Source: Thermodesulfobacteriota bacterium
GTDB taxonomy: Bacteria > Desulfobacterota_D > UBA1144 > Nemesobacterales > UBA2774
Direction: 5' to 3'
NCBI GenBank assembly: GCA_040754335.1
Contig: JBFMCV010000003.1
Span: 1 to 47,355, forward strand
DNA: 47,355 nt
Part shown: one piece after another, positions 20,253 through 41,788 of the stretch
Layout of the letters: every line of letters starts with the position of its first letter
How positions within the stretch are numbered: the stretch's first letter is position 1
Position numbers and translations under genes: made by a program
The notes under the pieces: generated by a model
What the model was told of the DNA's origin: nothing
What the model saw: only the letters and a program-made list of their open reading frames with translations
The model's database searches: none

Positions 20253-20268
20253 GGCAAAATGCGTGCCA
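20253..20268 (-). promoter_or_regulatory. Sigma-54 promoter of the ABC importer operon
   Basis: Read on the minus strand: TGGCACGCATTTTGCC. The -24 GG and -12 GC are separated by exactly 10 bases, the required spacing. Expected start near 20242, about 29 bases before the binding-protein ATG. Confidence 0.8.
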
Positions 20269-20623: not shown

Positions 20624-20639
20624 TGGCATACAACTTGCA
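20624..20639 (+). promoter_or_regulatory. Sigma-54 promoter of the activator gene
   Basis: TGGCATACAACTTGCA with GG-N10-GC spacing. Almost identical to the promoter at 39975-39990 (TGGCATACAAGTTGCA). Expected start near 20650, giving a leader of about 32 bases. An activator gene with its own sigma-54 promoter implies auto-activation or control by a second activator. Confidence 0.85.
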
Positions 20640-20681: not shown

Positions 20682-22244
20682 ATGGCCGCCGCTACAAAAA
20701 GGTCACTCGAACTCACGACATTATACGAGATCAGCAAACTCTTGACCTCGACTTTCAACCTCGACCAGTCGCTCACCTCGGTCATGAACGTGCTCGACAA
20801 GTTTCTAGGCATGCGTTACGGGACAATCGTGCTTCAGGATAAAGAGTCCAAAACGCTCGACACCGTCGTTTCACTCGGCGTAGAAAAAAAACGCCACATC
20901 AAATTCAGATCCGGCGAGGGAATAATCGGGAAGGTATTCAAAACGGGGTCCCCGATAGTCGTAACGGATATAAGGGACGAGCCCTCGATATGGAAAGGGA
21001 TGAAGCTCGAGGACAGCGTCCTTACGAAGTTTTCACTCCTCTGCATTCCCATCAAATCGCAGAGGGGGACGATTGGGACGCTGAGCGTTATCTACTGCAG
21101 GAGCGAGGAGTCGGTATCCATCAACGAGGCGCTTTCACTGCTGACGATGATCGGGTCGCTTATCGGGCAGGCGATAGAGATAAGCAGCAAGGTAAACGAG
21201 GAGAAGGCGAGGCTCAGGGAAGAGAAAATGCACCTCCAGCAGGAGCTCGCGAGCATGCACCGTATAGACAATATGGTCGGCCGGAGCGATATAATGCAGG
21301 AGACTTTCGAAACCATCAAGCGCGTGGCGCTCAGCAGCGCCACCGTCCTGATCAGGGGTGAGAGCGGGACCGGGAAAGAGCTCGTCGCAAGGGCCATACA
21401 CTATAACAGCCCCAGAGCCGAAGGCCCGTTCATCAAAATCAACTGCACGGCGATCCCCGACACGCTGCTAGAGACAGAGCTCTTCGGCCATGTAAAAGGG
21501 TCTTTTACCGGCGCTTCGGGAGAGAGGAAAGGGAGGTTCGAGCTCGCGGATAAAGGGACGATCTTTCTCGACGAGATAGGGGACCTGCCCGTATCCACGC
21601 AGTTGAAGCTCCTCCGCGTGCTCCAGGAGAGGAGCTTCGAGAAAGTTGGGAGCTCGACGACGATAAGCGTCGACGTGAGGATAGTCGCCGCGACCAACAG
21701 CGACCTCGAAGCTGCGATCGAGAAGGGGACTTTCAGGGAAGACCTGTTTTACCGTTTGAACGTCGTCCCCATAATACTCCCGCCGGTCAGAAGCCGGAGA
21801 GAAGACATACCGCTTTTAATAGAGCATTTCCTGAAGAAGTTTAACAAGGAGAACTCCAAGAACGTGAGCATCTCAGGGGAGGCGATGGAATATCTGCTCG
21901 GCTACACCTGGCCCGGCAATGTGCGCGAGATCGAAAACTGCATAGAGAGGATCGTTATACTGAGCGATAACGACATTGCGACGCGCAACGACCTGCCGTA
22001 CGAAATATTGAATGCAAGGAGAATACCGCACCGATCCAAGCCGGAGGATGTTCACAAACCCGAAGATGACTCACTCACGAAGACGGTGGAAGATATAGAG
22101 ATCGAACGTATAGTGGACGCGCTCAGGAAATGCGGATGGGTGAAGTCGAGAGCGGCCAAGCTCATAGGACTCACGACGAGGCAGCTCGATTACAGAATAA
22201 GCAAATACGGCATCTCGTTCGACAAGCCGTGGAGAGATTCGTAA
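20682..22244 (+). CDS. Sigma-54-dependent activator (GAF - AAA+ - Fis HTH)
   Basis: The 520-residue protein has an N-terminal GAF sensor (about 25-168), a short coiled linker (170-195), a sigma-54 activator AAA+ domain (about 198-430) and a C-terminal Fis-type helix-turn-helix (about 475-510, KSRAAKLIGLTTRQLDYRI). Walker A is GESGTGKE (226-233), Walker B is FLDEIGD (295-301). The sigma-54-contacting loop reads GSFTGA (273-278) and not the usual GAFTGA. The layout is that of NifA/NorR-type activators, which sense a small molecule through GAF. It is divergent from the ABC operon and converges on moeA with only 7 bases between the stops. A GGGAG ribosome site precedes the ATG. Five sigma-54 promoters in the window make it the likely master regulator of the cluster. 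Confidence 0.93.
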   Translation: MAAATKRSLELTTLYEISKLLTSTFNLDQSLTSVMNVLDKFLGMRYGTIVLQDKESKTLDTVVSLGVEKKRHIKFRSGEGIIGKVFKTGSPIVVTDIRDEPSIWKGMKLEDSVLTKFSLLCIPIKSQRGTIGTLSVIYCRSEESVSINEALSLLTMIGSLIGQAIEISSKVNEEKARLREEKMHLQQELASMHRIDNMVGRSDIMQETFETIKRVALSSATVLIRGESGTGKELVARAIHYNSPRAEGPFIKINCTAIPDTLLETELFGHVKGSFTGASGERKGRFELADKGTIFLDEIGDLPVSTQLKLLRVLQERSFEKVGSSTTISVDVRIVAATNSDLEAAIEKGTFREDLFYRLNVVPIILPPVRSRREDIPLLIEHFLKKFNKENSKNVSISGEAMEYLLGYTWPGNVREIENCIERIVILSDNDIATRNDLPYEILNARRIPHRSKPEDVHKPEDDSLTKTVEDIEIERIVDALRKCGWVKSRAAKLIGLTTRQLDYRISKYGISFDKPWRDS

Positions 22245-26716: not shown

Positions 26717-28054
26717 CTAGGAGCCGACTGCGGCTGTTTTCTGAGCCTGCGCCTCCTGGAACGCCCTCTTCTCCTCCTCGATCGTCTCAGGTGAGAACCT
26801 GATGAAGAACACGAAGAGCGATGCTATCACGACGCAGAGCCCGAGATAGAAGAGCCCGCCCTGCATAGTGAGGCTTTCAGACCTGAAGAGAAAACCGGCC
26901 GCAACCGCGCCGGCATTCCCTCCCGCGCCCACTATACCCGCAACGGATCCGAGGGCCTTCTTGTTAAGGAACGGCACTACTCCATACGTCGCTCCGTTAG
27001 ACATCTTGACGAAGAGGCCGAAGACGACCATGGAGATTACAGCGATAACGAGGGCGGACATCTGTGAAAAGACGACGAGTGCGATACCTTCGAGGAACAA
27101 TACGGCGAAGAGGAACCTCACTCTCCCCGTGAGTCCGTGGCTTTTCGCAAACTTGTCGGAGAAGATTCCGCCCAGCGCCCTCGCGAATATATTCATGAGA
27201 CCGAAGAGGCCCGCGATTATGCCCGCCGACTCCAGGCTTAACTCGAACCGGTCGAAGAAGTAGAGCGCCGCTATGTTGTCTATCGTTATTTCGACACCGA
27301 AGCACGCAGCATAGACGACGAAGAGCGCCCAGACGCGGGGGTCTTTCGCTGCAAGGAGAAAAGAGCCGTGCTCCTTGTCCTCCGCTGCCGGCATCTCGCC
27401 CCTCGCGCGGAGCTCTTTGTAGTTTCCGTCGGGAGCGTCCTGTGTGAAGAAGTAGTAAGCTATACCAGTGAGAAATAATACCACTCCGGGAACCACCATC
27501 GCGAGTCTCCATCCGAGGAATTTACCGGCACCCAGGCTGACTATGGCCGCGAATATGAGCGGCATGACCATTTGCGTCACTCCGCCTCCGAGGTTGCCCC
27601 ATCCCGCGGTAGTCGCGTTCGCAGTACCCACAACGTTCGGGGCGAACATGATGGAGGTGTGATATTGAGTGATTACGAACGACGCGCCTATCATGCCTAT
27701 CGCGAGTCGGAAGAGGAGGAACGTCTCGTAGCTGTGGGAGAGACCTATACCCATGACCGGCAGAGCCCCAACGAGGAGGAGCCATGTGTATGTAAGGCGC
27801 GGGCCGTACTTGTCGCAGAGCTTTCCGACGACAAGACGGCATAGAATCGTAATGGCGACGGATGCGATTATCGTGTTGCCTATTTGCGTCTTCGTGAGGC
27901 CGAGGTCTTCCCTCACTACAGCCATTAACGGCGCTATTCCGAACCATCCGAAAAAGCAGAGGAAGAACGCGAACCACGTCATGTGAAATGCCCGCATTTG
28001 CGGTGTGCTCAGGCTGAACAGGCTGATACGTGCAGCTTTATTTTTGATCTCCAT
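26717..28054 (-). CDS. Nitrate/nitrite transporter, NNP family (MFS)
   Basis: The 445-residue inner-membrane protein has 12 predicted transmembrane segments and both NNP signatures: AGWGNLGGGVTQ in TM5 and GAGGNAGAVAAGF in TM11, with FRLAIGMIGASF between. NarK/NasA-type carriers bring nitrate into the cytoplasm by symport or exchange for nitrite. The gene has its own sigma-54 promoter (28103-28118) with paired upstream palindromes (28212-28245). A GGAGGC ribosome site precedes the ATG. Given the assimilatory reductases around it, nitrate uptake for growth is the likely role. Confidence 0.95.
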   Translation of the reverse strand: MEIKNKAARISLFSLSTPQMRAFHMTWFAFFLCFFGWFGIAPLMAVVREDLGLTKTQIGNTIIASVAITILCRLVVGKLCDKYGPRLTYTWLLLVGALPVMGIGLSHSYETFLLFRLAIGMIGASFVITQYHTSIMFAPNVVGTANATTAGWGNLGGGVTQMVMPLIFAAIVSLGAGKFLGWRLAMVVPGVVLFLTGIAYYFFTQDAPDGNYKELRARGEMPAAEDKEHGSFLLAAKDPRVWALFVVYAACFGVEITIDNIAALYFFDRFELSLESAGIIAGLFGLMNIFARALGGIFSDKFAKSHGLTGRVRFLFAVLFLEGIALVVFSQMSALVIAVISMVVFGLFVKMSNGATYGVVPFLNKKALGSVAGIVGAGGNAGAVAAGFLFRSESLTMQGGLFYLGLCVVIASLFVFFIRFSPETIEEEKRAFQEAQAQKTAAVGS

Positions 28055-28102: not shown

Positions 28103-28118
28103 GGCAATTGCTGTGCCA
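28103..28118 (-). promoter_or_regulatory. Sigma-54 promoter of the nitrate transporter gene
   Basis: Read on the minus strand: TGGCACAGCAATTGCC, with GG-N10-GC spacing and an almost ideal -24 box. Expected start near 28092, about 38 bases before the transporter ATG. Confidence 0.85.
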
Positions 28119-28211: not shown

Positions 28212-28245
28212 TTACAATTTTGTAAATACTCTTACAAAGTTGTAA
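28212..28245. promoter_or_regulatory. Paired palindromes, candidate enhancer sites for the sigma-54 activator
   Basis: TTACAATTTTGTAA (28212-28225) and TTACAAAGTTGTAA (28232-28245) are two 14-base inverted repeats with centres exactly 20 bp apart. A weaker third half-site TTAC begins at 28252, again 20 bp on. They lie about 127 and 147 bp upstream of the predicted transporter start, a normal distance for enhancer-binding proteins. The same core (ACAA-N2-TTGT) is paired at 40076-40109. Confidence 0.75.
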
Positions 28246-28269
28246 ATATGTTTACTTGCAATGAGTGTC

Positions 28270-30144
28270 TTAATCCTCGACGGAATAGCCGCTGCCCCTG
28301 GGTACGAGCCTGTAGGTTTTTATTTCGAGTGACGAATCCGTATGACACCTTCCGGTCTTGACGTTGAACCTGTTGCCGTGTCCGGGACAGACCACGTCAT
28401 CTCCGAGCAATGTCCCGGAGGATAATCTATTCCCCTGGTGCGGGCAGAGATTTTGCGTCGCATAGAGTTCGCCCCTGATCTTGAAAACGGCGATCTCCTT
28501 GCCGTCGATAACGACGGGCTTGCCCGACCCTTCCGTTATGTCGTCCGCGTGAATGACGGAGACGGCTTTCGCTTCGGCGCTTTCGATAACGGAGGGCCCT
28601 AGTTCTTCGGGGTTAAGGAGGTTGTCTATCTGTTTTCTGAATTTTTCGAAGGCACCCCATTGAACGAGCCCTTCGAGAACGAACGTGAGCTCGCTGCACG
28701 GGACGTTCTCCATTATCTTTATCGCGGGCTTCGTTTCGGGACCCGACTCCCCGCCGATAAAAATATCGACCGCATCGACGATCTCGCCATTCACCTGTGT
28801 TTTCTTGCCGAGGAGCCCTATGTCGGCGATCGTATGGTTGCCGCAGCCCGAAGGACAGCCGGACCAATTGATGCTCCTGGGATTAAAATTCGGGAGAATG
28901 CTCTCCAGCTCGCGTCCTATCTCGAACGCGCGGTTTTTCGTCTCTATGAGAGCGAGGTTGCAGTACTCGCTTCCGGAGCAGCTCGTGATGCTCCTCATGA
29001 CGGCCGAGGGATAGGGACTCAGCTCCTGGAGAAGCCTTTCCGAGAGTACGCGGTTCACGTTTTCATCCGGTATATTAGGGATGATCAGATTCTGCCGCGC
29101 CGTCAGCCTGACCTCTCCGTTACCGTAGAGCGCAGACAACCTCGCCGTCTCGGCGAGCTGCTCTCCCGTAATCTTGCCTACCGGGACGAGCATCCCGATA
29201 TAGTTGAGCCCGTGCTGGAGCTGGGGGAATACTCCTATATGGTCGGTCTCGTGGCCGAACCTTTCGTCCTTCCCCGCACTCTCGAGAGCAACCCCCAGGC
29301 TGATCTCAACCGCCTCTCTCAGCTTTTCCACTCCCCATTCGTCAATCAGGAACGAGAGCCTTGCCTTGTTCCTCGCCGCTCTCGGACCGTTGTCGCGATA
29401 AATGACCGCGATCGTTTTACACAGCTCCGGCGCTTCGCGTGGCGTCACGAATACGTCGAGCGGCCGGGATTCCTTGAACCCTCCCGAGCCGTTTTTGCCG
29501 CCGACGAAAACGTTGAACCCTTGAACGTTTTTACCGTTCATGATTTTGCTCGCGGGAACGAGAGAGATGTCCTGAGTTGCGGAGTTCGTGCAGTTCTCCT
29601 TGCACGCCGTTATCGTCACGTTCATCTTCCGCGGGAGGTTCGAGTATTCCCTGTTGCCGACGAAAATGTTGTTGAACCGTTTCACGACAGGGGAGGCCTC
29701 GAAGAGCTCAGTCCTCGAGATACCGGAGACCGGACAGCCCACGACGTTTCTGATGTTGTCCATCCCTGTCTGGAGAGTGAGGAGTCCGGCATGATTAAGG
29801 AGCCTGAGGACCTTCGGGACATCGACGATCTTTATCCATCTGAGCTGAATCTGCTGCCGCGTCGTTATATCCGCTCTTCCGCGGCCGATGTTATTCGTTA
29901 TCCACGCTATCGTCTCTATCTGCTGTGAAGCGGCTATGCCGTTAGGAATCCTTATCCTGACCATGAAATAGCCCGGAGTGTGCTTTCTGAAGAACGTGCC
30001 GAACCACTTTAGCCGCTCGAGATCGTCTTCGCCAATTGACTCGAACCCCTCGAGAGCGAACTTTTCGATATCCGCCCCCACATCGAGCCCGTCCTTCTCG
30101 AGCTTGATCTTCTCTATCCTGTTGAGCTTCGTTTTCTTCGGCAC
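28270..30144 (-). CDS. nirA: Ferredoxin-type nitrite reductase (siroheme) fused to a Rieske domain
   Basis: Residues 1 to about 500 are a NirA/sulfite-reductase hemoprotein with two half-domains; the siroheme-[4Fe-4S] cysteines are CSGSEYC (about 387-393) and CPSGC (about 429-433). Residues about 525-624 form a Rieske-like domain (CPHQGN and CPGHGN, two Cys-His pairs) of the NirD type, ending soon after. The enzyme should reduce nitrite to ammonium with six electrons, the Rieske part replacing a separate NirD. Family members can also act on sulfite, but the nitrate context favours nitrite. The start is GTG at 30144 with a GAGGGGG ribosome site upstream. It lies 31 bases after the moaD-moaE gene. 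The cytoplasmic electron donor is probably ferredoxin fed by the FprA-like reductase nearby. Confidence 0.93.
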   Translation of the reverse strand: MPKKTKLNRIEKIKLEKDGLDVGADIEKFALEGFESIGEDDLERLKWFGTFFRKHTPGYFMVRIRIPNGIAASQQIETIAWITNNIGRGRADITTRQQIQLRWIKIVDVPKVLRLLNHAGLLTLQTGMDNIRNVVGCPVSGISRTELFEASPVVKRFNNIFVGNREYSNLPRKMNVTITACKENCTNSATQDISLVPASKIMNGKNVQGFNVFVGGKNGSGGFKESRPLDVFVTPREAPELCKTIAVIYRDNGPRAARNKARLSFLIDEWGVEKLREAVEISLGVALESAGKDERFGHETDHIGVFPQLQHGLNYIGMLVPVGKITGEQLAETARLSALYGNGEVRLTARQNLIIPNIPDENVNRVLSERLLQELSPYPSAVMRSITSCSGSEYCNLALIETKNRAFEIGRELESILPNFNPRSINWSGCPSGCGNHTIADIGLLGKKTQVNGEIVDAVDIFIGGESGPETKPAIKIMENVPCSELTFVLEGLVQWGAFEKFRKQIDNLLNPEELGPSVIESAEAKAVSVIHADDITEGSGKPVVIDGKEIAVFKIRGELYATQNLCPHQGNRLSSGTLLGDDVVCPGHGNRFNVKTGRCHTDSSLEIKTYRLVPRGSGYSVED

Positions 30145-30175
30145 CTTGCAATCCCCCTCTGTCTTGGTCTATAGA

Positions 30176-30958
30176 TTAAACAGGCAATTTGTATGCCGTT
30201 TTTTCATGATAGTTATAATCGGGATCCGATATGATATCCGGGTCGTCCGGGGTCTCGGCGTCCGGTCCGATGAGCTTCCCGTCCTTCCAGCTTTCGGTGC
30301 CGTCGTCGTAGTTCTCGAGCTTCCATACGGGCACCTTCGATTTCACTTCGTCTATAATAAAATCAATGCCGGCAATGCTTTCCTTCCTGTGCCCGGAGGA
30401 AACCGCTACGAAAAAAGCTGTCTCGCCGACATTGACCTCGCCAATCCTGTGCCTGAGCACGACATCGTGGAGTCGGAATTTCTCCATCGCGGAGAGGACG
30501 ATTTTATTTATCTCCCTCTCCGCCATCTCTTCATAAGCCGAATAAGTGATAGATACCACTCTTTTGACCGCCTTTCCCGTGCTTGATTTTTGAGCAGTGT
30601 GGTCATTTCTTACAATCCCCTCGAAAATGAGGAAAGAGCCTGAGCTCTCTCTCCGTACCCGCAATACGCTCTCGACGAATTCGAACGTTATCGGGCTATT
30701 CGTGAGGTATGTGAAATTCCCTCCCGAGATCGGGGGCAGGAGAGCGACCTCGTCCGAGTCCCCGATCCTGTCATCGTCCTGAGAGACGGATTGGTTTACG
30801 ACGACCCGGAATGTTTCCGCACTTAACTGCGGATGGATGCCGAATAGCGATGCCGTCATTTCCCTGACGGAGCAGCTTTCCCGGTCGATGCAGAGGGTCA
30901 GCTCCTTTACGCCTGCGATCGACATCAATCTGCCGAACAAGAGCACGTTAACTTTCAT
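30176..30958 (-). CDS. MoaD-MoaE fusion (molybdopterin synthase, both subunits)
   Basis: Residues 1-80 are the ubiquitin-like sulfur carrier MoaD, ending in the conserved LLPPISGG (Gly79-Gly80); residues about 85-235 are MoaE, with SGHRKESIAGIDFIIDEVK and PVWKLE holding the catalytic basic residues. Together they add two sulfurs to cyclic pyranopterin monophosphate. Because MoaD must carry a free C-terminal Gly-Gly thiocarboxylate, the fusion must be cut after Gly80 to work, as reported for mycobacterial MoaX. A GGAGTGAG ribosome site precedes the ATG, which overlaps the stop of the molybdate transporter gene by 11 bases. The acidic tail after residue 235 is unusual. Confidence 0.92.
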   Translation of the reverse strand: MKVNVLLFGRLMSIAGVKELTLCIDRESCSVREMTASLFGIHPQLSAETFRVVVNQSVSQDDDRIGDSDEVALLPPISGGNFTYLTNSPITFEFVESVLRVRRESSGSFLIFEGIVRNDHTAQKSSTGKAVKRVVSITYSAYEEMAEREINKIVLSAMEKFRLHDVVLRHRIGEVNVGETAFFVAVSSGHRKESIAGIDFIIDEVKSKVPVWKLENYDDGTESWKDGKLIGPDAETPDDPDIISDPDYNYHEKTAYKLPV

Positions 30959-32138
30959 TTCTCACTCCGAGCGACCTCCTTGCTATGGGTTCGAGATAGT
31001 AAATCAACGTGCCTGCCAGAAGACCGTAGACGTATCCGTTCTTGATAAAGACGCATATAAAGCCGACTATGAGGGCTATTATGAGCTCTTTCGAGCCGGC
31101 CGTTTTTTTAATAAATTTAGTCAGGGCAAAACCTTCGACCGAGAGAATGACGCCCAGAACAGGGAGCGGGAAGAGCGCGTTGATCGACGAGTAATTGCCT
31201 GAAAGAAAGAACGCGATAAGCAGGTATAAAGAGCCGTAGATGAGGAGGGTCCCGCCCGTCCTTCCGCCGAAAGCGTAATGCCCCGCGAGCCCGCCCGATC
31301 CGTGGCATACAGGGATTCCGCCGAATAGCGGGTTTACGATGTTCATGAGCGAGTAAGTGTTCGCGAGCTTTTTCACACTCAGCTTTTTCTCGGGGAACAA
31401 ATCATCTGCGAGCTTTTTCGTCGCGGCGAGAGCATTCGTTATGGAGAGCGGGAGCTGCGGAAGGCCGAGGACGACAAAGCCCGTAAGTATGTCGTATAGT
31501 GAAGGTGCATGAATTTGCGGAAGGGATAAATGCATGGCCGGGAAGTTAGGCATCGCCCCGGTGTTAAAGATTAGAGAGTAAAGCAAGCCCAGAAGTATGA
31601 CCGCGAGCGCCGGAGGGTATCGCCTGTTTCCAAGAAGCAAGAATACAATTACCAAACCCGCTGCGGCTAGAATAATGCCCTCGAGACCCTGCGACGGAAT
31701 GTAATCCGTGAGCGCAAGAAGCAGCAAGTTCAGACCGAGGCCGAACTGGATTCCCCTTACGACGGAGCTCGGTATGAAGTCGTATATCATTTTTATCAGG
31801 CCGGTAAGGTTGAGGAAAAGCATCACGACGCCGAGCCCGATGCCCGCAGCAAGTATCATGTCGGCTCCCAGGCGCTGGGATATGGCCATGACTGCTATTG
31901 CTTTCAACGGTTGGACGGGCATCGGGATGCCGTAGAAGAGTCCCGAGAAAATTTGTGTAGCGCCGAACATGACGAACACGCTGACAGGGTCGAGACCTGA
32001 TGCGAGCAAAATACCAACGATGAGCGGCAGGTCAGTGCCTATGTCTCCGAAAGCGCCTGAGAGCTCGTTCCTGTCTATCCTTATGCGGGACCGAAGTGCT
32101 CCGTTAAGCGAGCCAAGCATGAACATTGTATGATTCAT
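30948..32138 (-). CDS. Molybdate (sulfate-like) transporter, MOT1 family
   Basis: The 396-residue polytopic protein carries the MOT1 signatures: GAFGDIGTDLPLIVGI near residue 30 and GGIPVCHGSGGLAGHYAF near residue 275. It has about 10 to 12 membrane segments. Plant and algal MOT1 proteins are high-affinity molybdate carriers; the location between moaA and moaD-moaE fits molybdate uptake for the nitrate reductase. Sulfate cannot be excluded. An AGGAGG ribosome site lies 8 bases before the ATG at 32138. Confidence 0.9.
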   Translation of the reverse strand: MNHTMFMLGSLNGALRSRIRIDRNELSGAFGDIGTDLPLIVGILLASGLDPVSVFVMFGATQIFSGLFYGIPMPVQPLKAIAVMAISQRLGADMILAAGIGLGVVMLFLNLTGLIKMIYDFIPSSVVRGIQFGLGLNLLLLALTDYIPSQGLEGIILAAAGLVIVFLLLGNRRYPPALAVILLGLLYSLIFNTGAMPNFPAMHLSLPQIHAPSLYDILTGFVVLGLPQLPLSITNALAATKKLADDLFPEKKLSVKKLANTYSLMNIVNPLFGGIPVCHGSGGLAGHYAFGGRTGGTLLIYGSLYLLIAFFLSGNYSSINALFPLPVLGVILSVEGFALTKFIKKTAGSKELIIALIVGFICVFIKNGYVYGLLAGTLIYYLEPIARRSLGVRNES

Positions 32139-32142
32139 CCGG

Positions 32143-33147
32143 TCAACCTCCTATTTGCGACATTGTCCTCGCTGGCTTTACAAAGCCCGGTTTGTTTATG
32201 AGGTGGCCGCGCTCTTTTTTCGACACCGCGTCGACGATTACGTCCCTGATTTCCAGATCGCTCGCGCCTTCTCTCAGGAGATTCCGCAGATCCGTTTCGC
32301 CTAAAGAGAAGAGGCAGGTCCTCAGCTTGCCGTCGGAGGTAATCCTCACGCGGTTACAGTGCCCGCAGAAGGGATTGCTTACCGAGCTGATGAACCCTAT
32401 CTCGCCCGAGCCGTCTTCGAATAGGTAGCCGTCCGCAGGCTCGCTCCCCCCGAGACGCTTGGGAATAAGACTGAGCCTGAGGCCGTGCTCTATCGTCTTG
32501 ATTATTTCGTCTTGAGTTATTACCTGCTCGATGTTCCAGTCATCCCCGCCGCCTATGGGCATGTATTCGATGAACCGGATTATGTAATTGCTCTTCCGCG
32601 CGAGCTCCGCAAAATCGAGTATTTCGCCGTCGTTGAACCCGCGTATTAAAACGACGTTTATCTTGATGGGGCTAAGCCCGATACGCGCGGCTTCTGCGAC
32701 ACCGCGGAGCACCTTATCGTAGTAGCTCCTCCTGGTTATTTCTGCGAAGCTGTCGCTCCTGAGTGAATCGAGGCTTACGTTGATGCGCTTGAGCCCCGCA
32801 TCCGATAACGCTCGAGCTTGCTCCTCAAGAAAATAGCCGTTAGTAGTGAGGGATATGTCTCTCACATTCCCGACGCCTGCGAGCATAGCCACGAGGACGT
32901 GAAGCTCCTTCCTCAGAAGCGGCTCGCCGCCCGTGAGGCGTATCTTGTCGACGCCGAGGCCGGAGAAAATTTCTGCGAGTCTTGCGATCTCCTCGAAGCT
33001 CAGTATCTTGTCTTTCTCCAGCCACACCATGCCTCGGGCGGGCATGCAGTACTTGCAGCGGAAGTTGCATCTGTCCGTTACAGAGATCCTCAGATTATTG
33101 ACCACTCTTCCGAACGTGTCTTTAAGCAGAATTTTCGATTCCTCCAT
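32143..33147 (-). CDS. moaA: GTP 3',8-cyclase
   Basis: MoaA is the radical-SAM enzyme that starts molybdopterin synthesis by rearranging GTP. The N-terminal cluster is CNFRCKYC (Cys27, 31, 34), the C-terminal cluster is NPFCGHCNRVR...RTCLF, and the protein ends in the diglycine IGG that members need. The start at 33147 shares one base with the stop of the nitrate reductase gene (TAATG), so the two are translationally coupled. The frame stays open further upstream but that part lies inside the nitrate reductase gene and has no MoaA character. Length is 334 residues. Confidence 0.95.
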   Translation of the reverse strand: MEESKILLKDTFGRVVNNLRISVTDRCNFRCKYCMPARGMVWLEKDKILSFEEIARLAEIFSGLGVDKIRLTGGEPLLRKELHVLVAMLAGVGNVRDISLTTNGYFLEEQARALSDAGLKRINVSLDSLRSDSFAEITRRSYYDKVLRGVAEAARIGLSPIKINVVLIRGFNDGEILDFAELARKSNYIIRFIEYMPIGGGDDWNIEQVITQDEIIKTIEHGLRLSLIPKRLGGSEPADGYLFEDGSGEIGFISSVSNPFCGHCNRVRITSDGKLRTCLFSLGETDLRNLLREGASDLEIRDVIVDAVSKKERGHLINKPGFVKPARTMSQIGG

Positions 33148-36100
33148 TAATGCACCGGTTTTACCGCGCGCAGAATCTCCTTTACCTCTTCGAGACAAGT
33201 GCCGCACGTGACCGCGACCTTGAGCCGCTCCTTGAGCGCTTCGATGCTGCTGCTCCCGTTCTTTACGGCGAGCGTTATCTCGTCCTCGGTCACGCACATG
33301 CAGGAGCATACGACTCTCCCCGAAGGGAGCTTTTCTTTGAAATTCCCCGAGATGAGAGTGTCTCTATACTTCGAGATATCGGAAGCGCTCCGGGCGAGCG
33401 CCAGCACTTCCTCGGCCCCTCCGGTGTCCCCGATATAGAATCCGCCGACTACGCGGTCACCGCGCACCACTATCTTTTTGTATATCGATTGACCTTTGTC
33501 TAAAAACGTGAGCACATTCGACTTTTCATCGTCGGCGTTGAACTGTCCGAATGAAATTATGTCGAGCCCGAGGATATGGAAGCGGTTCGCATCGACCGAT
33601 TCAGTGTAGCGCGCGGTCGGGTCGCCGCTAACGTGTCTCGCCAGAACGTCCGCCTGCATCGCGAGCAAGTCGGTGTCGTGCGTGAGAACGCCCTTGACCT
33701 CAGCCGTTTTCCCTATGGCGTGTATGTCGGGGATGTTAGTCTCGAGCTGCTCTCCCGCGACTATACCTTTATTGATGAGGAGACCGGTTTTGAGCGGCAG
33801 GTCGAGGTCGGGCCTCATGACGGATTCGATGAATATAAGGTCGGCGCCTATTTCCCTGCCGCGCCCGATCACCACTTTCCTTATGCCGTCTCTTTCTATT
33901 ATCTCTTCGATCTCGGCGCCGAGTATTATATTTATACCTCTGCGCGTGAGCTTGTGAAAAATAAATTGAGAGCCCGCTGAATCGACATACTTGTCGAGGA
34001 GCATGTTGTCGGGGTCGATTAGATAGACCTCCTCGGCGCCCCGTGATTTCAACAGATCGGCGGTCTCTATAGCGGAGGGCCGCGAGCCTATCACGACAAC
34101 TCTCCCGAGGACGAGCTCCCTCGCGATTATCCTCTTAGCATCTTCGAAATCGCGTATGGGTCTTATACACTCGGATGAAAACCCTTTCACGGGCGGCAGG
34201 TACGTCCTCTTTCCCGGCGCAAAAACGAGCTTGTCGTATGGAAGCGCTTCTCCGTCCGCAAGCTCTACCATCTTTTCGCCGGTTCTTACGTTATTCGGGA
34301 GTCTCCCGTCTACCCTTATCCTGCCGTTGGGGATGTTCTCAGCTGTGGTAAGAAGTGTTATATCGATTGCGGGATTGATGTCGTTGATTTTGTGAGCGAG
34401 CTCGAGCGCGGAGGGGTCGTTCCCAATTATCAGCACTCGGGACTTGTCGTCGAACGATTTCTTCTCTACCCTCACGGCGCACGCCTTGAATTCCGGCTGC
34501 TGTGAGTAAGGGTCTATGGCATCGAGGGTGAGAAGGTTTGCCCTGCCGTTATTCGCGAGGAGCTTCCCCCAGTGAAACGGGAGGAATACCGTGCCTTCCC
34601 TGACCTTGTCCGTCACCTTGCACCTCACGGTCGCTTTACCCCTCCGCGACTCGACCAGCGTGAGATCGCCCTCGCGGAGTCCGTACTTCCCGGCATCCAC
34701 GGGATTAATTTCGAGCACGGGCTCGGGTTCGTTCTTGGTGAGGCTCTCGACCTTTCCCGTCTTCGTCATCGTGTGCCACTGGTCCCTTACGCGCCCTGTA
34801 GTGAAGACGAGCGGATATTCGGGGTCGGCGGTCTCCTCCTGCGGGTTGTAATGCACGGACAGGATTTTCGCCTTCCCCGTGTCGGTATGGAATTTACCGT
34901 CCGTGTATAGCCTGGGCGTTCCCGGATGCGTCTCATCGGGGCAGGGCCACTGGAGAGGGCCTGTATTTATCAGTCTCTCGTACGTCACGCCCGTGATATC
35001 GACGTCGCGGCCCCTGCTCAACTGCTTATATTCATCGAAGACATCCTCAGCGCGCTCGTAACCGAAATGCGCGCCGAAGCCCATCTTATGTGCGAATTTC
35101 GTGAATATCCGCCAATCGGGGAGAGCCTCACCCGGGGGATCGACCGCTTCCGAGACGTGGGATATCCTCCGCTCCTGGCTCGTCATCGTCCCTTCCTTCT
35201 CGCTGAAGCCGGCCGCGGGGAGAAGGATGTCGGCGAATATGCTCGTATCCGTCGGGTGGAATATGTCCTGCACTATGACGAGCTCGGCTTTCCGGAGCGC
35301 GTCTTCGACTTTCGATCCGTTCGGGAGCGACACGACAGGGTTCGTGCATATTATCCATACTGCTTTTATCCTGCCTTCATTTATGCCGTCGTATATCTCG
35401 ACCGCGGTGAGCCCTTTTAAAGGCGAGAGTCCGTCCGTGCCCCATCTCTCTTCTATCTCTTTCCTATGTACTTCGTCAGCCATGTAGCGGTGTCCGGGCA
35501 GGAGGTTGGCGAGACCGCCTGTCTCACGGCCGCCCATTGCGTTTGCCTGACCCGTGAGGGAGAATGGGCCCGCGCCAGGTTTGCCGATGTTTCCCGTAAC
35601 TATGGATAGATTTAATAGCGCGTTGTTCTTGTCCGTGCCGGAGCTGCTCTGGTTGAGACCCATAGCCCAGAAGCTCATCGCCGCGCTCGCTTTTCCGAAT
35701 GCGAGAGCAGCTTCCGTAATGAGACTAGAAGACACGCCGCAGATCTCCGATACTTTTTCAGGCGGGTATTCTTTCACCGTATCCTTGAGATTTTCGAACC
35801 CTTCCGTGTGCGTATCGATGTAGTCGTGATCGACGAGACCGTTTTCGATTAGAACGTGAATCATGGAGTTGAGAAGGGCAACGTCGGTGCCGGGCTTTAA
35901 CGGTATGAATATATCGGCTATGCCCGCGGTAGGCGTCTTCCTCGGATCGGCAACGATTATCTTTAAATCACTCCCCTTTTTCTCTTTCTCCTCCGCCAGC
36001 TGCATGAACACGACAGGATGGCAGTAGGCCATGTTCGAGCCGATGATGAATACGCAGTCCGTGTGCTTCAAATCTTCATAAGAGCATGGCGGGGCGTCCA

Positions 36101-36563
36101 CGCCGAACGCGCGCCTGTAGCCCATCACGGCAGAAGACATGCAGAGGCGGGAATTCGAGTCGAGGTTGTTGACTTTGAGGAAACCCTTAGAGAGCTTGTT
36201 GACGACGTAATAGTCTTCCGTGAGAAGCTGGCCGGATATATAAAAAGCTATCGACTCCGGTCCGTAAGTATTAATGAGACTCTTGAATTTACCGGCGATC
36301 CTGTCGAGAGCTTTATCCCACGTAGTCGAAGTGAACGGGGAGAGCCTGGAGTCCCTGATTAAAGGGTGAGTGAGCCTGTCTTTCTTATGGATCGTGTGAT
36401 GGAGGTTGAGCCCCTTCGAGCAGAGCTTTCCCCTGTTCGAAGGATGGCCGGGATCGCCCCTAACGCCAAGGACTCTGCCTCCTCCCGTCTCCAGTATCAC
36501 GCCGCATCCCACGCCGCAGTAAGGACAAACGGTCCTGTGCTCGGTCTTCTGATTCAGCTGCAA
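33147..36563 (-). CDS. Assimilatory nitrate reductase fused to flavoprotein-like and BFD modules
   Basis: The 1138-residue protein begins with a Mo-bisMGD oxidoreductase (about 1-695) that has a [4Fe-4S] motif Cys13, 16, 20 and 48 (CPYCGVGCG...GKLC) and NasC/NarB-like sequence (GQANAMGGRETGGLANLLPGH). From about 700 to 1070 is a fold like the NirB/NasB NAD(P)H flavoprotein, but its cofactor motifs are altered: IGNDPSA (about 712), FAPGKR, IGSRPSA (about 823) and AIGKTAE (about 949). The end is a BFD-like [2Fe-2S] domain (CSCMC 1086-1090; CGTC 1120-1123). The start is TTG at 36563 with GGGGAG 7 bases upstream, 47 bases after the previous stop; the longer open frame overlaps that gene. It reduces nitrate to nitrite in the cytoplasm. 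Confidence 0.92.
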   Translation of the reverse strand: MQLNQKTEHRTVCPYCGVGCGVILETGGGRVLGVRGDPGHPSNRGKLCSKGLNLHHTIHKKDRLTHPLIRDSRLSPFTSTTWDKALDRIAGKFKSLINTYGPESIAFYISGQLLTEDYYVVNKLSKGFLKVNNLDSNSRLCMSSAVMGYRRAFGVDAPPCSYEDLKHTDCVFIIGSNMAYCHPVVFMQLAEEKEKKGSDLKIIVADPRKTPTAGIADIFIPLKPGTDVALLNSMIHVLIENGLVDHDYIDTHTEGFENLKDTVKEYPPEKVSEICGVSSSLITEAALAFGKASAAMSFWAMGLNQSSSGTDKNNALLNLSIVTGNIGKPGAGPFSLTGQANAMGGRETGGLANLLPGHRYMADEVHRKEIEERWGTDGLSPLKGLTAVEIYDGINEGRIKAVWIICTNPVVSLPNGSKVEDALRKAELVIVQDIFHPTDTSIFADILLPAAGFSEKEGTMTSQERRISHVSEAVDPPGEALPDWRIFTKFAHKMGFGAHFGYERAEDVFDEYKQLSRGRDVDITGVTYERLINTGPLQWPCPDETHPGTPRLYTDGKFHTDTGKAKILSVHYNPQEETADPEYPLVFTTGRVRDQWHTMTKTGKVESLTKNEPEPVLEINPVDAGKYGLREGDLTLVESRRGKATVRCKVTDKVREGTVFLPFHWGKLLANNGRANLLTLDAIDPYSQQPEFKACAVRVEKKSFDDKSRVLIIGNDPSALELAHKINDINPAIDITLLTTAENIPNGRIRVDGRLPNNVRTGEKMVELADGEALPYDKLVFAPGKRTYLPPVKGFSSECIRPIRDFEDAKRIIARELVLGRVVVIGSRPSAIETADLLKSRGAEEVYLIDPDNMLLDKYVDSAGSQFIFHKLTRRGINIILGAEIEEIIERDGIRKVVIGRGREIGADLIFIESVMRPDLDLPLKTGLLINKGIVAGEQLETNIPDIHAIGKTAEVKGVLTHDTDLLAMQADVLARHVSGDPTARYTESVDANRFHILGLDIISFGQFNADDEKSNVLTFLDKGQSIYKKIVVRGDRVVGGFYIGDTGGAEEVLALARSASDISKYRDTLISGNFKEKLPSGRVVCSCMCVTEDEITLAVKNGSSSIEALKERLKVAVTCGTCLEEVKEILRAVKPVH

Positions 36564-36610
36564 AATTCTGCTCCCCGTTTTATATTGGATTCGACAGCTT
36601 TCTTGCCCCC

Positions 36611-39600
36611 CTACGCGTCCACCTCCATATCTCCTCTGGGTTTCGCCATGCAGATGAGCGCCTCTCCCGACGCTATCTCTTCGGGTGTAATCCCCTCGAC
36701 ATTGCCCTGCTCGAACCTGCCCCTCACCCTGAGCTTGCAAGTCCCGCAGACACCCTGCTGGCAGCTGAACGGCAAGCTAAGGCCCTCGTCGAGCCCTTTT
36801 TGCAGTATCGTTTCGGTGCCTTTGACGGTGACGGTCTTCCCGCTCACCTTGAATTTCACGGAGTATTCTCCTTTTGCCAGGTCCTTCGATTGGACAGCCT
36901 CGTTCTCCGCGACTTTTTTCCGGGCTTCGATCGCCTCGGGCGAGTCGAGCATGCCCGCTATTATCTCGGCGAGGTTGTCGATTCCGATTCTGTACACGAA
37001 GTCGACGAAGGGCTCTCCGTCATGTCTCATCTCGATATAAGTCCTGAGGACAGTATCCACGGTATCGTTCACTTCATTGGCGGCTATATTTCTTCTCACC
37101 ACTTCTCCCACCCTGGCTGAGCCGTTCATGTGGCCGCCCAGGTATAGAAAATATTTTCCCGCGCTCCCCGAAAGTCCTATGTCCGCAACCTGGTGCTGCG
37201 CGCAGCTGTTCGGGCAGCCGGATATTTGTATGCGCAACTTACTGATCTGCTCGTCGTCTTTATAGTCTTTCCCGCCTATGTGTCTTATGAGCGAATCCGC
37301 GGTCCCCTGCGAGTTGGAAACACCCCAGACGCAGAAGGTCGTACCCGGGCAGGCCATCACGTCGAGCACGGAGCCCGAGCCCTTAGGAGCGAGCCCGATC
37401 GCGCCTAGCTCCGCGAGCAGCTTAGGGAGCTTTTCCTTTCTTACCCACTGGAGCTCGAAATTCTGCTGCATCGTGTTCTGGATTTTTCCGTCGGCGTAAT
37501 CGAGAGAGAGCCTCGCTATCGTTCTGGCCTGCGCCGCGGTGAGCTCTCCGAGCGGCACTCTCACGACCACCCTGTAATAGCCCTCCTGCTTCTGCGGGTA
37601 GATTCCCTCCTTATCGACGTCACCGTGTAAAGACTCATCGTTTTTAACTTCGACGCCGTGAAGCTGCGGGAATTTCGAGTAATAGATGCTCGAAAACTCT
37701 TCGCGAAATTTATCGAAGCCCCAGAGCTCGACGAGCTCTTTCAGGCGGGGGTTCCTGCTGTCGCTTATGTTCCCGTGTCTTGAATAGATTTCTATTATCG
37801 TCCTGAGCACCGGTACCGTCTGCTCAGGGGGAATGAAATCGATTAGCCGTTGAGATAGATGAGGCTTCGAGCCCAGGCTTCCTCCTACCCACACTTCGAA
37901 GCCGGGAATAACCGAGCCCTCGTGCTCGGCTTCGACGGCGACGTAACCTATATCGTTTACCATCGCGTGCGAGCGGTGTTTGGGACTGTTAGCGAAGTAG
38001 ACGTTCATCTTGCGGGGCAGCCTTTTATTTATCGAAAGCGAGTTCGTAACTATGTAGTCGTGAGCTACTTTCACCCAGGGCCTCACGTCCAGTATCTCGT
38101 CCCCACCTATACCGGCTTCCTCCGAGCACGTGACGTTCCTGATCGCGTGCCCGCACGCTGAGCGAGTGGAGAGTCCGACCTCTCTAAGCCGCTCGTCGAT
38201 CTCGCCGTCGTTTATGGTCGTCCAGTGGAGCTCCAGCGCCTGACGCGTCGTGATGTGCACCCAGCCTCCGTATTTCCCGGCGAGCTCCGCGACAGTCATG
38301 AGCTGGGGCGCTGTAACCTGTCCGCCGGGGACCCTGATGCGCCTCATGAAGTAGCCTTCCTGCTTCTGGCTGCAGTATCCGTGCGACTTAAGCCTAAGGA
38401 AATCGCTCGGGTCGATTGATGCGAAGCCCTCCTGCCTGTAACGCTCGAAATCGACTTCCATACCTTTCGATTTAATATCCGCCGGGTTGATTTTGCCGAG
38501 CCACGGGCTCTTGACCGTGCGGGGATGCAGGTCCTGAGAAGCGTAAATCGGGCTCTCAGGGGTAAGGGGAACGTCTTTGAGCGGAGGCTCATCGGCGGTA
38601 ATATCCTTCTCAGGAGTTTTCGCGGCGGAGTTGTCGGCAGCCGCACCCAGTAATAATTCATGCCTGTTCCCGTTCACACCGGTTCTATCAATTATCAATT
38701 TGAAAATCTTTCTGTAGTCTTTGATGTCTCCGAGGAATATTGCGCCTACGATGTGGTTGTCCCTGAAAACGAGCTTCTTGTATATGCCCCGCTCCGGGTC
38801 GGAATAGACGAGGTCTTCGCACCCCTCCCCGCCGTTGAAATTCCCGACCGAGACCAGGCTCACGCCGGCTACCTTGAGGACGGCGGATACGAGGGACCCC
38901 TCGTAGACGGACTCGCCGTTCCCGGCGATGGAATCGGCGGCGACGCGCGCCTGCTCGACAAGAGGGTCGAAGAGTCCGTAAACCATGCCCCGGTGCTCGA
39001 CGCATTCGCCGAGAGCGTAGATGTTTTCGTGGCTCGTCTGAAGGTAATCGTTGACGACTATCCCTTTCTTCACCAGGACCCCGGCTTTTTTCGCGAGCTC
39101 GACGTTGGGCCTTATGCCCGTACAGACAAGGACGAGGTCGGCGTCTAGTATTTCACCCGACGCCAGCCTGACCGCTTCCGCTCTCTCGTTACCGAGTATC
39201 TCCTCTGTGACTGCCTTCATCCTGAACTTAATCCCCATCCTCTCGATCAATCTTTCGAGCATGAGACCGGAATCGTAATCGAGCTGCTGCTCCATCAGGT
39301 GATCGACGAGGTGTATAACGGTCACGTCCATGCCGTTATCCTTAAGCGCCTTCGCGGCTTCGAGACCGAGGAGTCCCCCGCCTATCACGACCGCGTTCTT
39401 CTTGTATCTCGACACCTCGAGCATCGACCACACGTCGTCGATAGTCCGGTACGCGAATACGCCGCTCTTCTCGATCCCTTTTATAGGCGGGATGAAAGCA
39501 ACGCTCCCAGTTGCGATTACGAGCTTGTCGTAAGCTGACGAGAACCCTTTCTCGGAGCGGACTCTCCTACTCGCGGTATCTATCTCGGTCACGCGCGAGC

Positions 39601-39841
39601 CGGTGTAGAGCTTCACGCCGTTCTCCTCGAACCATTTCCTTTTTTTCAAATAGAGCTGGGCGAAGCTCTTCTTCCCCGACAGGACCTCGGACAGGAGAAT
39701 CCTGTTATAGCTGTGGTCGGGCTCCTCGCCGAAAACGACGAGCTCGATATTTTCGTTCTTTTTTCTGAGAATGTGCTCGACGGCGGACTGTCCCACCATC
39801 CCGTTCCCGATGACTACTACTCTCTCCTTCGATAAACTCAT
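36611..39841 (-). CDS. NirB-like flavoprotein / siroheme reductase / [2Fe-2S] ferredoxin fusion
   Basis: This 1076-residue protein combines (1) a NirB-type NAD(P)H flavoprotein head (about 1-400) with intact GNGMVG at 12-17, IATGS, GGGLLG near 155 and ALGECVE near 277; (2) a linker at about 405-455; (3) a nitrite/sulfite reductase hemoprotein (about 470-980) with siroheme-[4Fe-4S] cysteines in CPGTTFC (about 829) and SGCPNSC (about 875); and (4) a plant-type [2Fe-2S] ferredoxin at the C-terminus (CQQGVCGTC about 1020-1030 and LIC about 1063). The BFD domain usual in NirB is missing. It should carry electrons from NAD(P)H to siroheme in one chain, most likely for nitrite. It heads an operon with the nitrate reductase; a GGGAGAAG ribosome site precedes the ATG. 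Confidence 0.92.
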   Translation of the reverse strand: MSLSKERVVVIGNGMVGQSAVEHILRKKNENIELVVFGEEPDHSYNRILLSEVLSGKKSFAQLYLKKRKWFEENGVKLYTGSRVTEIDTASRRVRSEKGFSSAYDKLVIATGSVAFIPPIKGIEKSGVFAYRTIDDVWSMLEVSRYKKNAVVIGGGLLGLEAAKALKDNGMDVTVIHLVDHLMEQQLDYDSGLMLERLIERMGIKFRMKAVTEEILGNERAEAVRLASGEILDADLVLVCTGIRPNVELAKKAGVLVKKGIVVNDYLQTSHENIYALGECVEHRGMVYGLFDPLVEQARVAADSIAGNGESVYEGSLVSAVLKVAGVSLVSVGNFNGGEGCEDLVYSDPERGIYKKLVFRDNHIVGAIFLGDIKDYRKIFKLIIDRTGVNGNRHELLLGAAADNSAAKTPEKDITADEPPLKDVPLTPESPIYASQDLHPRTVKSPWLGKINPADIKSKGMEVDFERYRQEGFASIDPSDFLRLKSHGYCSQKQEGYFMRRIRVPGGQVTAPQLMTVAELAGKYGGWVHITTRQALELHWTTINDGEIDERLREVGLSTRSACGHAIRNVTCSEEAGIGGDEILDVRPWVKVAHDYIVTNSLSINKRLPRKMNVYFANSPKHRSHAMVNDIGYVAVEAEHEGSVIPGFEVWVGGSLGSKPHLSQRLIDFIPPEQTVPVLRTIIEIYSRHGNISDSRNPRLKELVELWGFDKFREEFSSIYYSKFPQLHGVEVKNDESLHGDVDKEGIYPQKQEGYYRVVVRVPLGELTAAQARTIARLSLDYADGKIQNTMQQNFELQWVRKEKLPKLLAELGAIGLAPKGSGSVLDVMACPGTTFCVWGVSNSQGTADSLIRHIGGKDYKDDEQISKLRIQISGCPNSCAQHQVADIGLSGSAGKYFLYLGGHMNGSARVGEVVRRNIAANEVNDTVDTVLRTYIEMRHDGEPFVDFVYRIGIDNLAEIIAGMLDSPEAIEARKKVAENEAVQSKDLAKGEYSVKFKVSGKTVTVKGTETILQKGLDEGLSLPFSCQQGVCGTCKLRVRGRFEQGNVEGITPEEIASGEALICMAKPRGDMEVDA

Positions 39842-39974
39842 ACTATCTTCTCCCGTTCATTAACAACGGAGCCCTGAACCCCGGCCGATATTGAGGGGCC
39901 CTGACTTATGGCATTAGTCTGTCAATGTATTGAGGATTCGCTAAAGCAGAGAAACTCATACGGTTATGTGAAGA

Positions 39975-39990
39975 TGCAACTTGTATGCCA
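39975..39990 (-). promoter_or_regulatory. Sigma-54 promoter of the nitrite/nitrate reductase operon
   Basis: Read on the minus strand: TGGCATACAAGTTGCA, GG-N10-GC spacing, one base different from the activator gene's promoter over 16 positions. Expected start near 39965. Confidence 0.85.
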
Positions 39991-40075
39991 TTTTTCTTCT
40001 GCAGTGCACAATGAAGAAAAAGCCTGATTTACGGTTGAGAGCAGGAAAGTAATTGAATATAAGATTTATGAAAGG

Positions 40076-40109
40076 TTACAAATTTGTAAGTTTGTCGACA
40101 AAATTGTTT
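40076..40109. promoter_or_regulatory. Paired palindromes, candidate enhancer sites
   Basis: TTACAAATTTGTAA (40076-40089) is a perfect 14-base palindrome. Twenty bases on, CGACAAAATTGTTT (40096-40109) keeps the core ACAA-N2-TTGT. They lie about 118 and 138 bp upstream of the predicted operon start. Core, pairing, 20-bp phase and distance match the sites at 28212-28245. Confidence 0.72.
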
Positions 40110-40245
40110 ACAAAATGACACTCCAAGGAATTACTTTTTAAGATAATCCCCCTTGGACAGGCTCAAGACCCCGCCGTACGGCCGAGGGACCTGAGCCCGG
40201 TTATTACCAGCTTCTTGTGATAGTCAGTGCGCACATGCAAAGAGG

Positions 40246-41685
40246 TCAGCTTTTGTCCGCACCGAAGTGCTCCGTCACATACCCCGTTCCCTTGAGCGCC
40301 GTAAATATCTCCTCGATCGACGTGAATTTGAGGCGCGGTCTGCCGCATTCACCGCCCCTTGCTATCTCAAGGCTGTCGATCTTGAGCCAGTCTTCATACG
40401 TTATATAGTGAGGCTGTCTTTCTCTAATTAATTCTTCCACGTGACCGTTGCCCGTACTATTCGGCTTGAGCGAGATTCCGTTCTTCACGTCCTCTATTAT
40501 GCATGCCGCCGTTTCGGCCGAATCCGTTTTATTCGTACCTATCACTCCCGATGCCCCCCGCTTTATCCATCCGGTCGCGTAGAGGCCAGGAATAGGAGCG
40601 TTGGTTCCGGGGTCTATAATCCTTCCCTTTTCATTGTGTATCGTTCCCCATTTATCGTTGAAAGGGATGCCGGGAAGGGGTACCCCCTGATAGCCGATCG
40701 ACCTGAAAACTAGGCCTGCGGGTATCTCTATGCGCTCGTCCGTCGATCTCGATTTTATGCTCCCGTCCTCAGACCTGTAGAGCTCGTTTTTCATGAGGCG
40801 GAGCGTGCCCGCCTTTCCCTCGCCATTGTCGACGATCTCGGCAGGGGAAAGGAGGAACCTCAGGTGGAGCCTCTTCCGTTTATCAGAAACGGAGTTGGCG
40901 GCGTATTCCCTTAGTATCTCAATTCTCCTCTCCACGGCCTCGTCGCCGCTAGCAGAGATTTCCTCGAGCGAAAGCTCGTCAGGCTCGACCTCGTCCGTGA
41001 GCGCGAGAGGGACTGCGTCTTCGAGCTCACCCAGCTCGCGGAGCTCGGGGTTCGTGAACGAGGCCTGTGCGGGACCTCGGCGGCCGATGATGTAAATGTC
41101 CCTGATTTTGCTATTGAGGAGAGTATTGAGGGCGTGCTCGGCGATGTCGGTCGCTCTGAGCTCTTTCTCCGAAAGGCAGAGTATCCTTGCGGCGTCGATC
41201 GCGACATTGCCTACTCCGATTATCACGGCGGTCTCGCAGGAGAGGTCGAATTCGAGGTCCCTGTAATCGGGATGACCGTTATACCAGGCGACGAATTCGG
41301 TCGCGGGGTGGCTCCCATTCAAATCTTCGCCAGGGATATTCATACGCCTGTCGGTCTGCGCGCCTGTCGCGAACACGACGACGTGATAATGATTTTTGAG
41401 GTCTTCCAAGTGTATGTGCTTGCCATATTCTACGAATCCCGTGAACCTGAACCGCGGGTCTTTAGCGATCTTGTCGTAGACCCTCGTCACGGATTTAATC
41501 TTCTGATGATCTGGAGCGACCCCGTTCCGCACAAGCCCGTGAGGCGTAGGGAGCCTGTCGTACATATCGATCTCAGCGTCTATTTCCTTGCTCTTTAACA
41601 GGTGGTCGGCAGCGTAAAAACCGGCAGGGCCCGAACCTATAACGGCCACCCTGATATGATTTGAGTTCGATTCGATATTGCTCAA
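40246..41685 (-). CDS. Ferredoxin-NADP reductase, FprA (adrenodoxin-reductase) type
   Basis: The 479-residue flavoprotein has the FAD motif VIGSGPAGFYAADHLL near the N-terminus, the NADPH site VIIGVGNVAIDAARILC near 155, and the family segments FRSIGYQG and GWIKRGASGVIGTNKTDS. FprA-type enzymes move electrons between NADPH and ferredoxins. In this cluster it can supply reduced ferredoxin to the NirA-Rieske enzyme, or to the attached ferredoxin domain of the NirB-like fusion. A C-terminal extension (about 425-479) follows the usual end. The start is TTG at 41685, 7 bases after a GGAGG ribosome site. It has its own sigma-54 promoter (41773-41788). Confidence 0.92.
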   Translation of the reverse strand: MSNIESNSNHIRVAVIGSGPAGFYAADHLLKSKEIDAEIDMYDRLPTPHGLVRNGVAPDHQKIKSVTRVYDKIAKDPRFRFTGFVEYGKHIHLEDLKNHYHVVVFATGAQTDRRMNIPGEDLNGSHPATEFVAWYNGHPDYRDLEFDLSCETAVIIGVGNVAIDAARILCLSEKELRATDIAEHALNTLLNSKIRDIYIIGRRGPAQASFTNPELRELGELEDAVPLALTDEVEPDELSLEEISASGDEAVERRIEILREYAANSVSDKRKRLHLRFLLSPAEIVDNGEGKAGTLRLMKNELYRSEDGSIKSRSTDERIEIPAGLVFRSIGYQGVPLPGIPFNDKWGTIHNEKGRIIDPGTNAPIPGLYATGWIKRGASGVIGTNKTDSAETAACIIEDVKNGISLKPNSTGNGHVEELIRERQPHYITYEDWLKIDSLEIARGGECGRPRLKFTSIEEIFTALKGTGYVTEHFGADKS

Positions 41686-41772: not shown

Positions 41773-41788
41773 AGCAATTATCGTGCCA
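41773..41788 (-). promoter_or_regulatory. Sigma-54 promoter of the ferredoxin reductase gene
   Basis: Read on the minus strand: TGGCACGATAATTGCT, GG-N10-GC spacing. Expected start near 41763, giving a leader of about 78 bases. No ACAA-N2-TTGT palindromes are present upstream. Confidence 0.8.

Follow-up and report, generated by a model that had tools for sequence, protein, structure and literature searches.

What controls the nitrate-assimilation genes of this Thermodesulfobacteriota bacterium, and which protein might act at the paired palindromes that precede two of their promoters? The window (the whole stretch of DNA that was analysed, 47,355 nucleotides) encodes a NarK-type MFS transporter, a porin, NirB with a ferredoxin domain, a fused nitrate reductase, a second nitrite reductase with a Rieske domain, and genes for the molybdenum cofactor. 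The nitrate/nitrite transporter (26717-28054, minus strand; Pfam MFS_1) has orthologues in two relatives, G034 and G007, that are 77-80% identical. The reductase operon, also on the minus strand, begins with the NirB-type nitrite reductase, which has a C-terminal 2Fe-2S domain (36611-39841; 59% identical to its orthologue in G034). Its second gene encodes an assimilatory nitrate reductase fused to a pyridine-nucleotide (flavoprotein)/BFD module (33147-36740). Both genes of the operon were assigned using Pfam.

The initial annotation picked out four sequences as two pairs of ACAA-N2-TTGT palindromes. All four were found in place, with exactly 20 bp between the centres in both pairs. The array for the transporter promoter (28212-28245, minus strand) has palindromes at 28214-28223 and 28234-28243, and the array for the nitrite/nitrate reductase promoter (40076-40120, minus strand) has palindromes at 40078-40087 and 40098-40107. 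One member, CGACAAAATTGTTT, had been described as degenerate: its outer bases do differ, but its ACAA-N2-TTGT core is complete. In the 3.26-Mb genome, TTACAANNTTGTAA has 4 copies, 3 of them inside the window, while a reversed control pattern has 0 matches. Genome-wide, there are exactly two copies of the pair ACAANNTTGT-N10-ACAANNTTGT, and the window holds both; the other pair matches in the genome carry at least 3 mismatches, the same as for the control pattern. Because both intergenic regions are AT-rich, the pairs might be suspected of being chance resemblances. When we shuffled the window, 0.05 pairs with up to 3 mismatches were expected, versus the 2 we found (both with 0 mismatches). Also, the arrays are kept in four relatives, which already contradicts chance, and we consider this explanation scarcely credible.

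Both pairs had been placed upstream of sigma-54 promoters, and the promoters are there. A loose scan for such promoters (two mismatches allowed) gave no more matches than expected by chance, and we used a strict pattern instead. TGGCAYN5TTGCM has 4 matches in the window, versus 0.02 expected, and these include the predicted -24/-12 promoters of the transporter (TGGCACAGCAATTGCC, 28103-28118, minus strand) and of the reductase operon (TGGCATACAAGTTGCA, 39975-39990, minus strand). The activator gene that we discuss below also has a strict match (TGGCATACAACTTGCA, 20624-20639, plus strand). A fifth promoter, at 41773-41788, fits the consensus TGGCACN5TTGCW exactly, and all five are directed at a gene start. 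Relative to the starts predicted from the strict promoters, the palindromes are centred at -126.5 and -146.5 for narK and at -118.5 and -138.5 for nirB, or 118-147 bp upstream, where the initial annotation had estimated about 120-150 bp. The three other sigma-54 promoters of the cluster (at 20253, 20624, and 41773) lack arrays. The one at 41773-41788 precedes a gene for a pyridine-nucleotide oxidoreductase (40246-41685). An ABC transporter ATPase with an N-terminal TusA-like domain (18083-19132) also has its own sigma-54 promoter, and its gene adjoins genes for an NMT1-type binding protein and a permease.

The arrays are conserved within the order. The initial annotation staked its proposal on finding such pairs upstream of orthologous operons in close relatives, and we found them at both narK and nirB. 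Four relatives from the same order have arrays, at narK, nirB, glnK-amtB, or a LuxR-type gene. Across five genomes, we tabulated nine arrays: three at narK, three at nirB, one at glnK-amtB (in G018, with an exact -24/-12 site), one at the LuxR-type gene (in G034), and one more. The window's narK and nirB arrays are both kept in G034 and G007. Six other sigma-54 promoters at the same loci, including the activators' own, have no arrays. Three of these genomes (G018, G026, and G034) encode orthologues of the window's activator, with 59-60% identity, and they have pairs near the activator or the nitrate genes; G034 has one further array elsewhere. Among 58 genomes of the phylum, we found no further activator orthologue at E <= 1e-140. 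In G007, an exact pair lies upstream of a narK that is 80% identical to the window's, and there is an array upstream of nirB; the arrays are present in this assembly (82% complete, with a nitrate contig of 13.9 kb) and no activator orthologue was found in it. In G026, an array (L118 10732-11121) lies directly 5' of a truncated porin gene and narK is missing. This locus looks like what a deletion has left of the nitrate operon.

All nine tabulated arrays lie upstream of sigma-54 promoters, at -111 to -172, which is a normal distance for an enhancer. This argues against the idea that the palindromes are operators for an unrelated repressor or activator near a housekeeping promoter, which we consider very unlikely. 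That idea would suit a lone exact copy of TTACAAAATTGTAA, the fourth exact palindrome in the genome, on contig 8 (120369-120382; L092 6370-6383). The gene that follows it, after about 57 bp, encodes a second porin of the alginate-export type, and we saw neither a partner palindrome nor a sigma-54 site nearby; for this reason, we left this copy out.

Which protein would bind the arrays? Our candidate (20682-22244, plus strand) is a sigma-54 activator of the NifA/Nlh1 family, as judged from protein models, its match in the PDB, and a phylogenetic tree. Like NifA, it has a GAF-AAA+-HTH_8 architecture (GAF, Sigma54_activat, and HTH_8 in Pfam). It passes the NifA model TIGR01817 (546.6 bits, cut-off 528.85), as do its orthologues (569-587 bits); this model is not specific for the control of nif genes, as amtB-linked homologues pass it too. 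Its best match in the PDB is 9qq6 (NifA), and its recognition helix is NifA-like (TTRQLDYRI versus TPRQIAYRI in 9qq6). It also matches the GAF domain of Nlh1 (4g3k; 5.6e-22). The loop that contacts sigma-54, GAFTGA, reads GSFTGA in this protein. As with NtrC, the proposed enhancers precede sigma-54 promoters that serve nitrogen assimilation; unlike NtrC, the protein has no N-terminal receiver domain (by Pfam), and it scores far below the cut-off of the ntrC model (341.8 versus 558.6 bits). It is also below the cut-off for NorR (343.1 versus 476 bits). In contrast to the oxygen-sensitive type of NifA, its translated sequence has no CX4C cysteine pair. This linker pair marks only oxygen-sensitive NifA and is absent from enteric-type NifA too. 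Past the orthologues, its neighbours in the tree are a protein from the Hydrogenothermaceae, which is encoded within a nitrate cluster that has TTACAAAATTGTAA sites, and a NifA-like protein from a gammaproteobacterium (support is moderate, 84/80 and 88/87).

Nitrogen fixation is what NifA is known to switch on. We found no nifH above the family cut-off in this genome or in ten relatives, so we did not classify the activator as a nif regulator. Also unlike NifA, the targets in this system are nitrate/nitrite assimilation and glnK-amtB. Given the arrays and their conservation, the promoters, the activator's family, and their co-occurrence, all of which are read from sequence, we think it quite probable that a NifA/Nlh1-type activator has been redeployed for nitrate and ammonium assimilation and that the arrays are its candidate upstream activator sequences. 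Set against this are the three promoters of the cluster that lack arrays, the other sigma-54 activators in the genome, and G007, with its arrays and no activator orthologue in the incomplete assembly.

The consensus site for NifA is TGT-N10-ACA (PMC7294313). When two ACAA-N2-TTGT palindromes are placed 20 bp apart, TTGT-N10-ACAA lies between them, and this is the NifA consensus. The inner TTGT-N10-ACAA also closely resembles the upstream activator sequence of nifH from Gluconacetobacter diazotrophicus, TTTTGT-N10-ACAAAG, which was used in binding assays (PMC10590331). The initial annotation considered that the sites do not match those of NifA; this was mistaken, as the inner dyad fits and the activator passes the NifA cut-off. 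Its broader suggestion, that these are enhancers for a dimeric Fis-family activator, fares better: the type of site, its conservation, and its presence mostly alongside an orthologue of 20682-22244 all agree with it, and we infer that this protein binds. The narK array has one TGT-N10-ACA, between the palindromes (28221-28236), and the nirB array has two (40085-40100 and 40105-40120). These putative sites were identified by sequence match. As for NifA, the window has an exact TGT-N10-ACA within 150 bp upstream of the starts of the predicted -24/-12 promoters; unlike for NifA, the half-sites continue as an array that also includes ACA-N4-TGT palindromes.

Which dyad is the binding unit? To see whether the N10 spacing is under selection apart from the palindrome, we looked outward of the terminal palindromes of the nine arrays: of 18 positions, 6 have an extra half-site at spacer 10, while any other spacer from 0 to 30 has at most 2. 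(P is about 6e-7 by a binomial test on base composition; this ignores shared ancestry and is optimistic because some of the promoters share a common origin.) Across 26 promoters, from loci that were partly selected by their sites, TTGT-Nd-ACAA has its peak at d = 10, and the peaks for ACAA-Nd-TTGT are at d = 2 and d = 22. Around the genes of distant homologues, ACAA-N2-TTGT ranks 1st of 3840 palindromes (12 occurrences versus 0.63 expected). Given these three results, both dyads appear to be real, alternating every 10 bp. We did not accept the NifA dyad as the sole unit, as the distant homologues keep the palindrome at other spacings (14, 18, 19, 29, 30, and 31 bp). We also rejected the argument that the inner arms are more conserved than the outer arms as proof of NifA-type sites: with the TGT/ACA core, the difference falls to about two mismatches when the nirB array of G007 is counted.

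Alternatively, the palindrome itself might be the unit, resembling the TAC-N6-GTA sites of AnfA, with TGT-N10-ACA as a by-product of the 20-bp placement. AnfA and VnfA are also GAF-type activators, their sites are TAC-N6-GTA and GTAC-N6-GTAC, and the anfH gene of R. capsulatus needs two such sites for full activity (PMC7294313). ACAA-N2-TTGT tops all the palindromes that we tested and is kept in the distant homologues while the spacing varies; also, TTACAANNTTGTAA contains TAC-N6-GTA, which is the consensus for AnfA from R. capsulatus (PMC7294313). TAC-N6-GTA is present in 3 of the 4 palindromes in the window, but the bases for TAC and GTA are missing from CGACAAAATTGTTT, and the outer TA is not fully conserved. 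Within the orthologue group, the spacing is always 20, the extra half-sites at spacer 10 do not complete a palindrome, and the recognition helix is NifA-like. Also, AnfA and VnfA serve alternative nitrogenases. We give this alternative real weight, but less than even chances.

Some other sigma-54 activator might use the arrays, as the genome does encode more of them. In many relatives that lack the NifA-like activator, sigma-54 promoters have TTGT-N10-ACAA at 60-125 bp on their upstream side (in total, 12 of 44 genomes have a match, versus 1 for the control). Such sites were seen at L153, L160-L164, L168, and L172, and at C5:266475-266587 in this genome; they often have the form TTGTAC-N6-GTACAA or TTGTCA-N6-TGACAA, and they are probably the sites of another conserved activator. 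Since other sigma-54 activators of the order appear to use sites like TTGTAC-N6-GTACAA, the presence of the inner dyad by itself does not point to our candidate. The full array, however, is found in genomes that have the activator or, for G007, its nitrate genes, and the arrays mostly adjoin one or the other. Furthermore, similar elements accompany the homologues in Aquifex, Hydrogenothermaceae, and Syntrophorhabdaceae. We therefore consider a different activator to be unlikely.

If the 20682-22244 protein is the regulator, then how might it work? The arrays are built of TGT/ACA half-sites, in which TGT-N10-ACA dyads alternate with ACA-N4-TGT palindromes, so that dyad centres recur every 10 bp, or about one helical turn. 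Most likely, the activator would bind as adjacent dimers along the array, oligomerise, and loop to the RNA polymerase-sigma-54 complex at the -24/-12 promoter, about 90-115 bp away, and its hydrolysis of ATP would open the promoter. The GAF domain would sense nitrogen limitation, perhaps via 2-oxoglutarate or another nitrogen signal, which would induce nitrate transport and the reduction of nitrate and nitrite.

We found no array at the activator's own promoter in any of four genomes, so its expression probably depends on a second activator, in a cascade like that from NtrC to NifA. Three of the orthologues have a TGCT-N9-AGCA palindrome (such as TGCTTAATTTATAAGCA) upstream of the activator's sigma-54 promoter (L116 18797-19175, L118 14880-15243, and L115 420-900), and this palindrome is absent from the window. 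It is possible that it is the site for the upstream activator. In the distant homologues, many of the ACAA-N2-TTGT sites are at the activator gene itself, with no sigma-54 promoter. For example, they lie 11-84 bp before the activator gene at L023 9967 and L017 9937-9975. The placement of these sites suggests an additional, possibly autoregulatory, role.

One known relative is Nlh1 (NifA-like homolog 1) of Aquifex aeolicus. To our knowledge, no binding site for Nlh1 has been published, nor has its regulon been established; the structure of its GAF domain has been solved. The homologue in an Aquifex genome matches that structure (4g3k) at 4.2e-73; its gene appears to be frameshifted ahead of the HTH. 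The window's activator belongs to the same family, and it is about 48% identical over the shared part, from another phylum. In this Aquifex genome, TGT-N10-ACA/ACA-N4-TGT elements lie before two sigma-54 promoters that fit the strict pattern, one for glnB-glnA and one for an operon with P-II and an MFS transporter, so the same type of site co-occurs with the Nlh1 relative. In a genome from the Syntrophorhabdaceae, the palindromes lie upstream of a glutamine synthetase operon. A review presumed that Nlh1 regulates nitrogen assimilation, not fixation (PMC9866876), so a role of this kind for the family was anticipated; the present analysis adds the site and the set of targets.

More tentatively, a non-fixing branch of NifA, comprising the window's protein and Nlh1, might be a general regulator of nitrogen assimilation in several phyla, taking NtrC's part. 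Its enhancers would be continuous arrays, in which every half-site is common to two overlapping dyads (TGT-N10-ACA and ACA-N4-TGT) that are one helical turn apart, with the DNA templating the activator ring. We would not yet favor this idea. Overall, a protein that fits the NifA model appears to run nitrate and ammonium assimilation, by way of NifA-type sites, in bacteria where no nitrogenase was detected. For Nlh1, this provides a testable binding motif and a target set, and it implies that nif-specific annotations of such genes are misleading.
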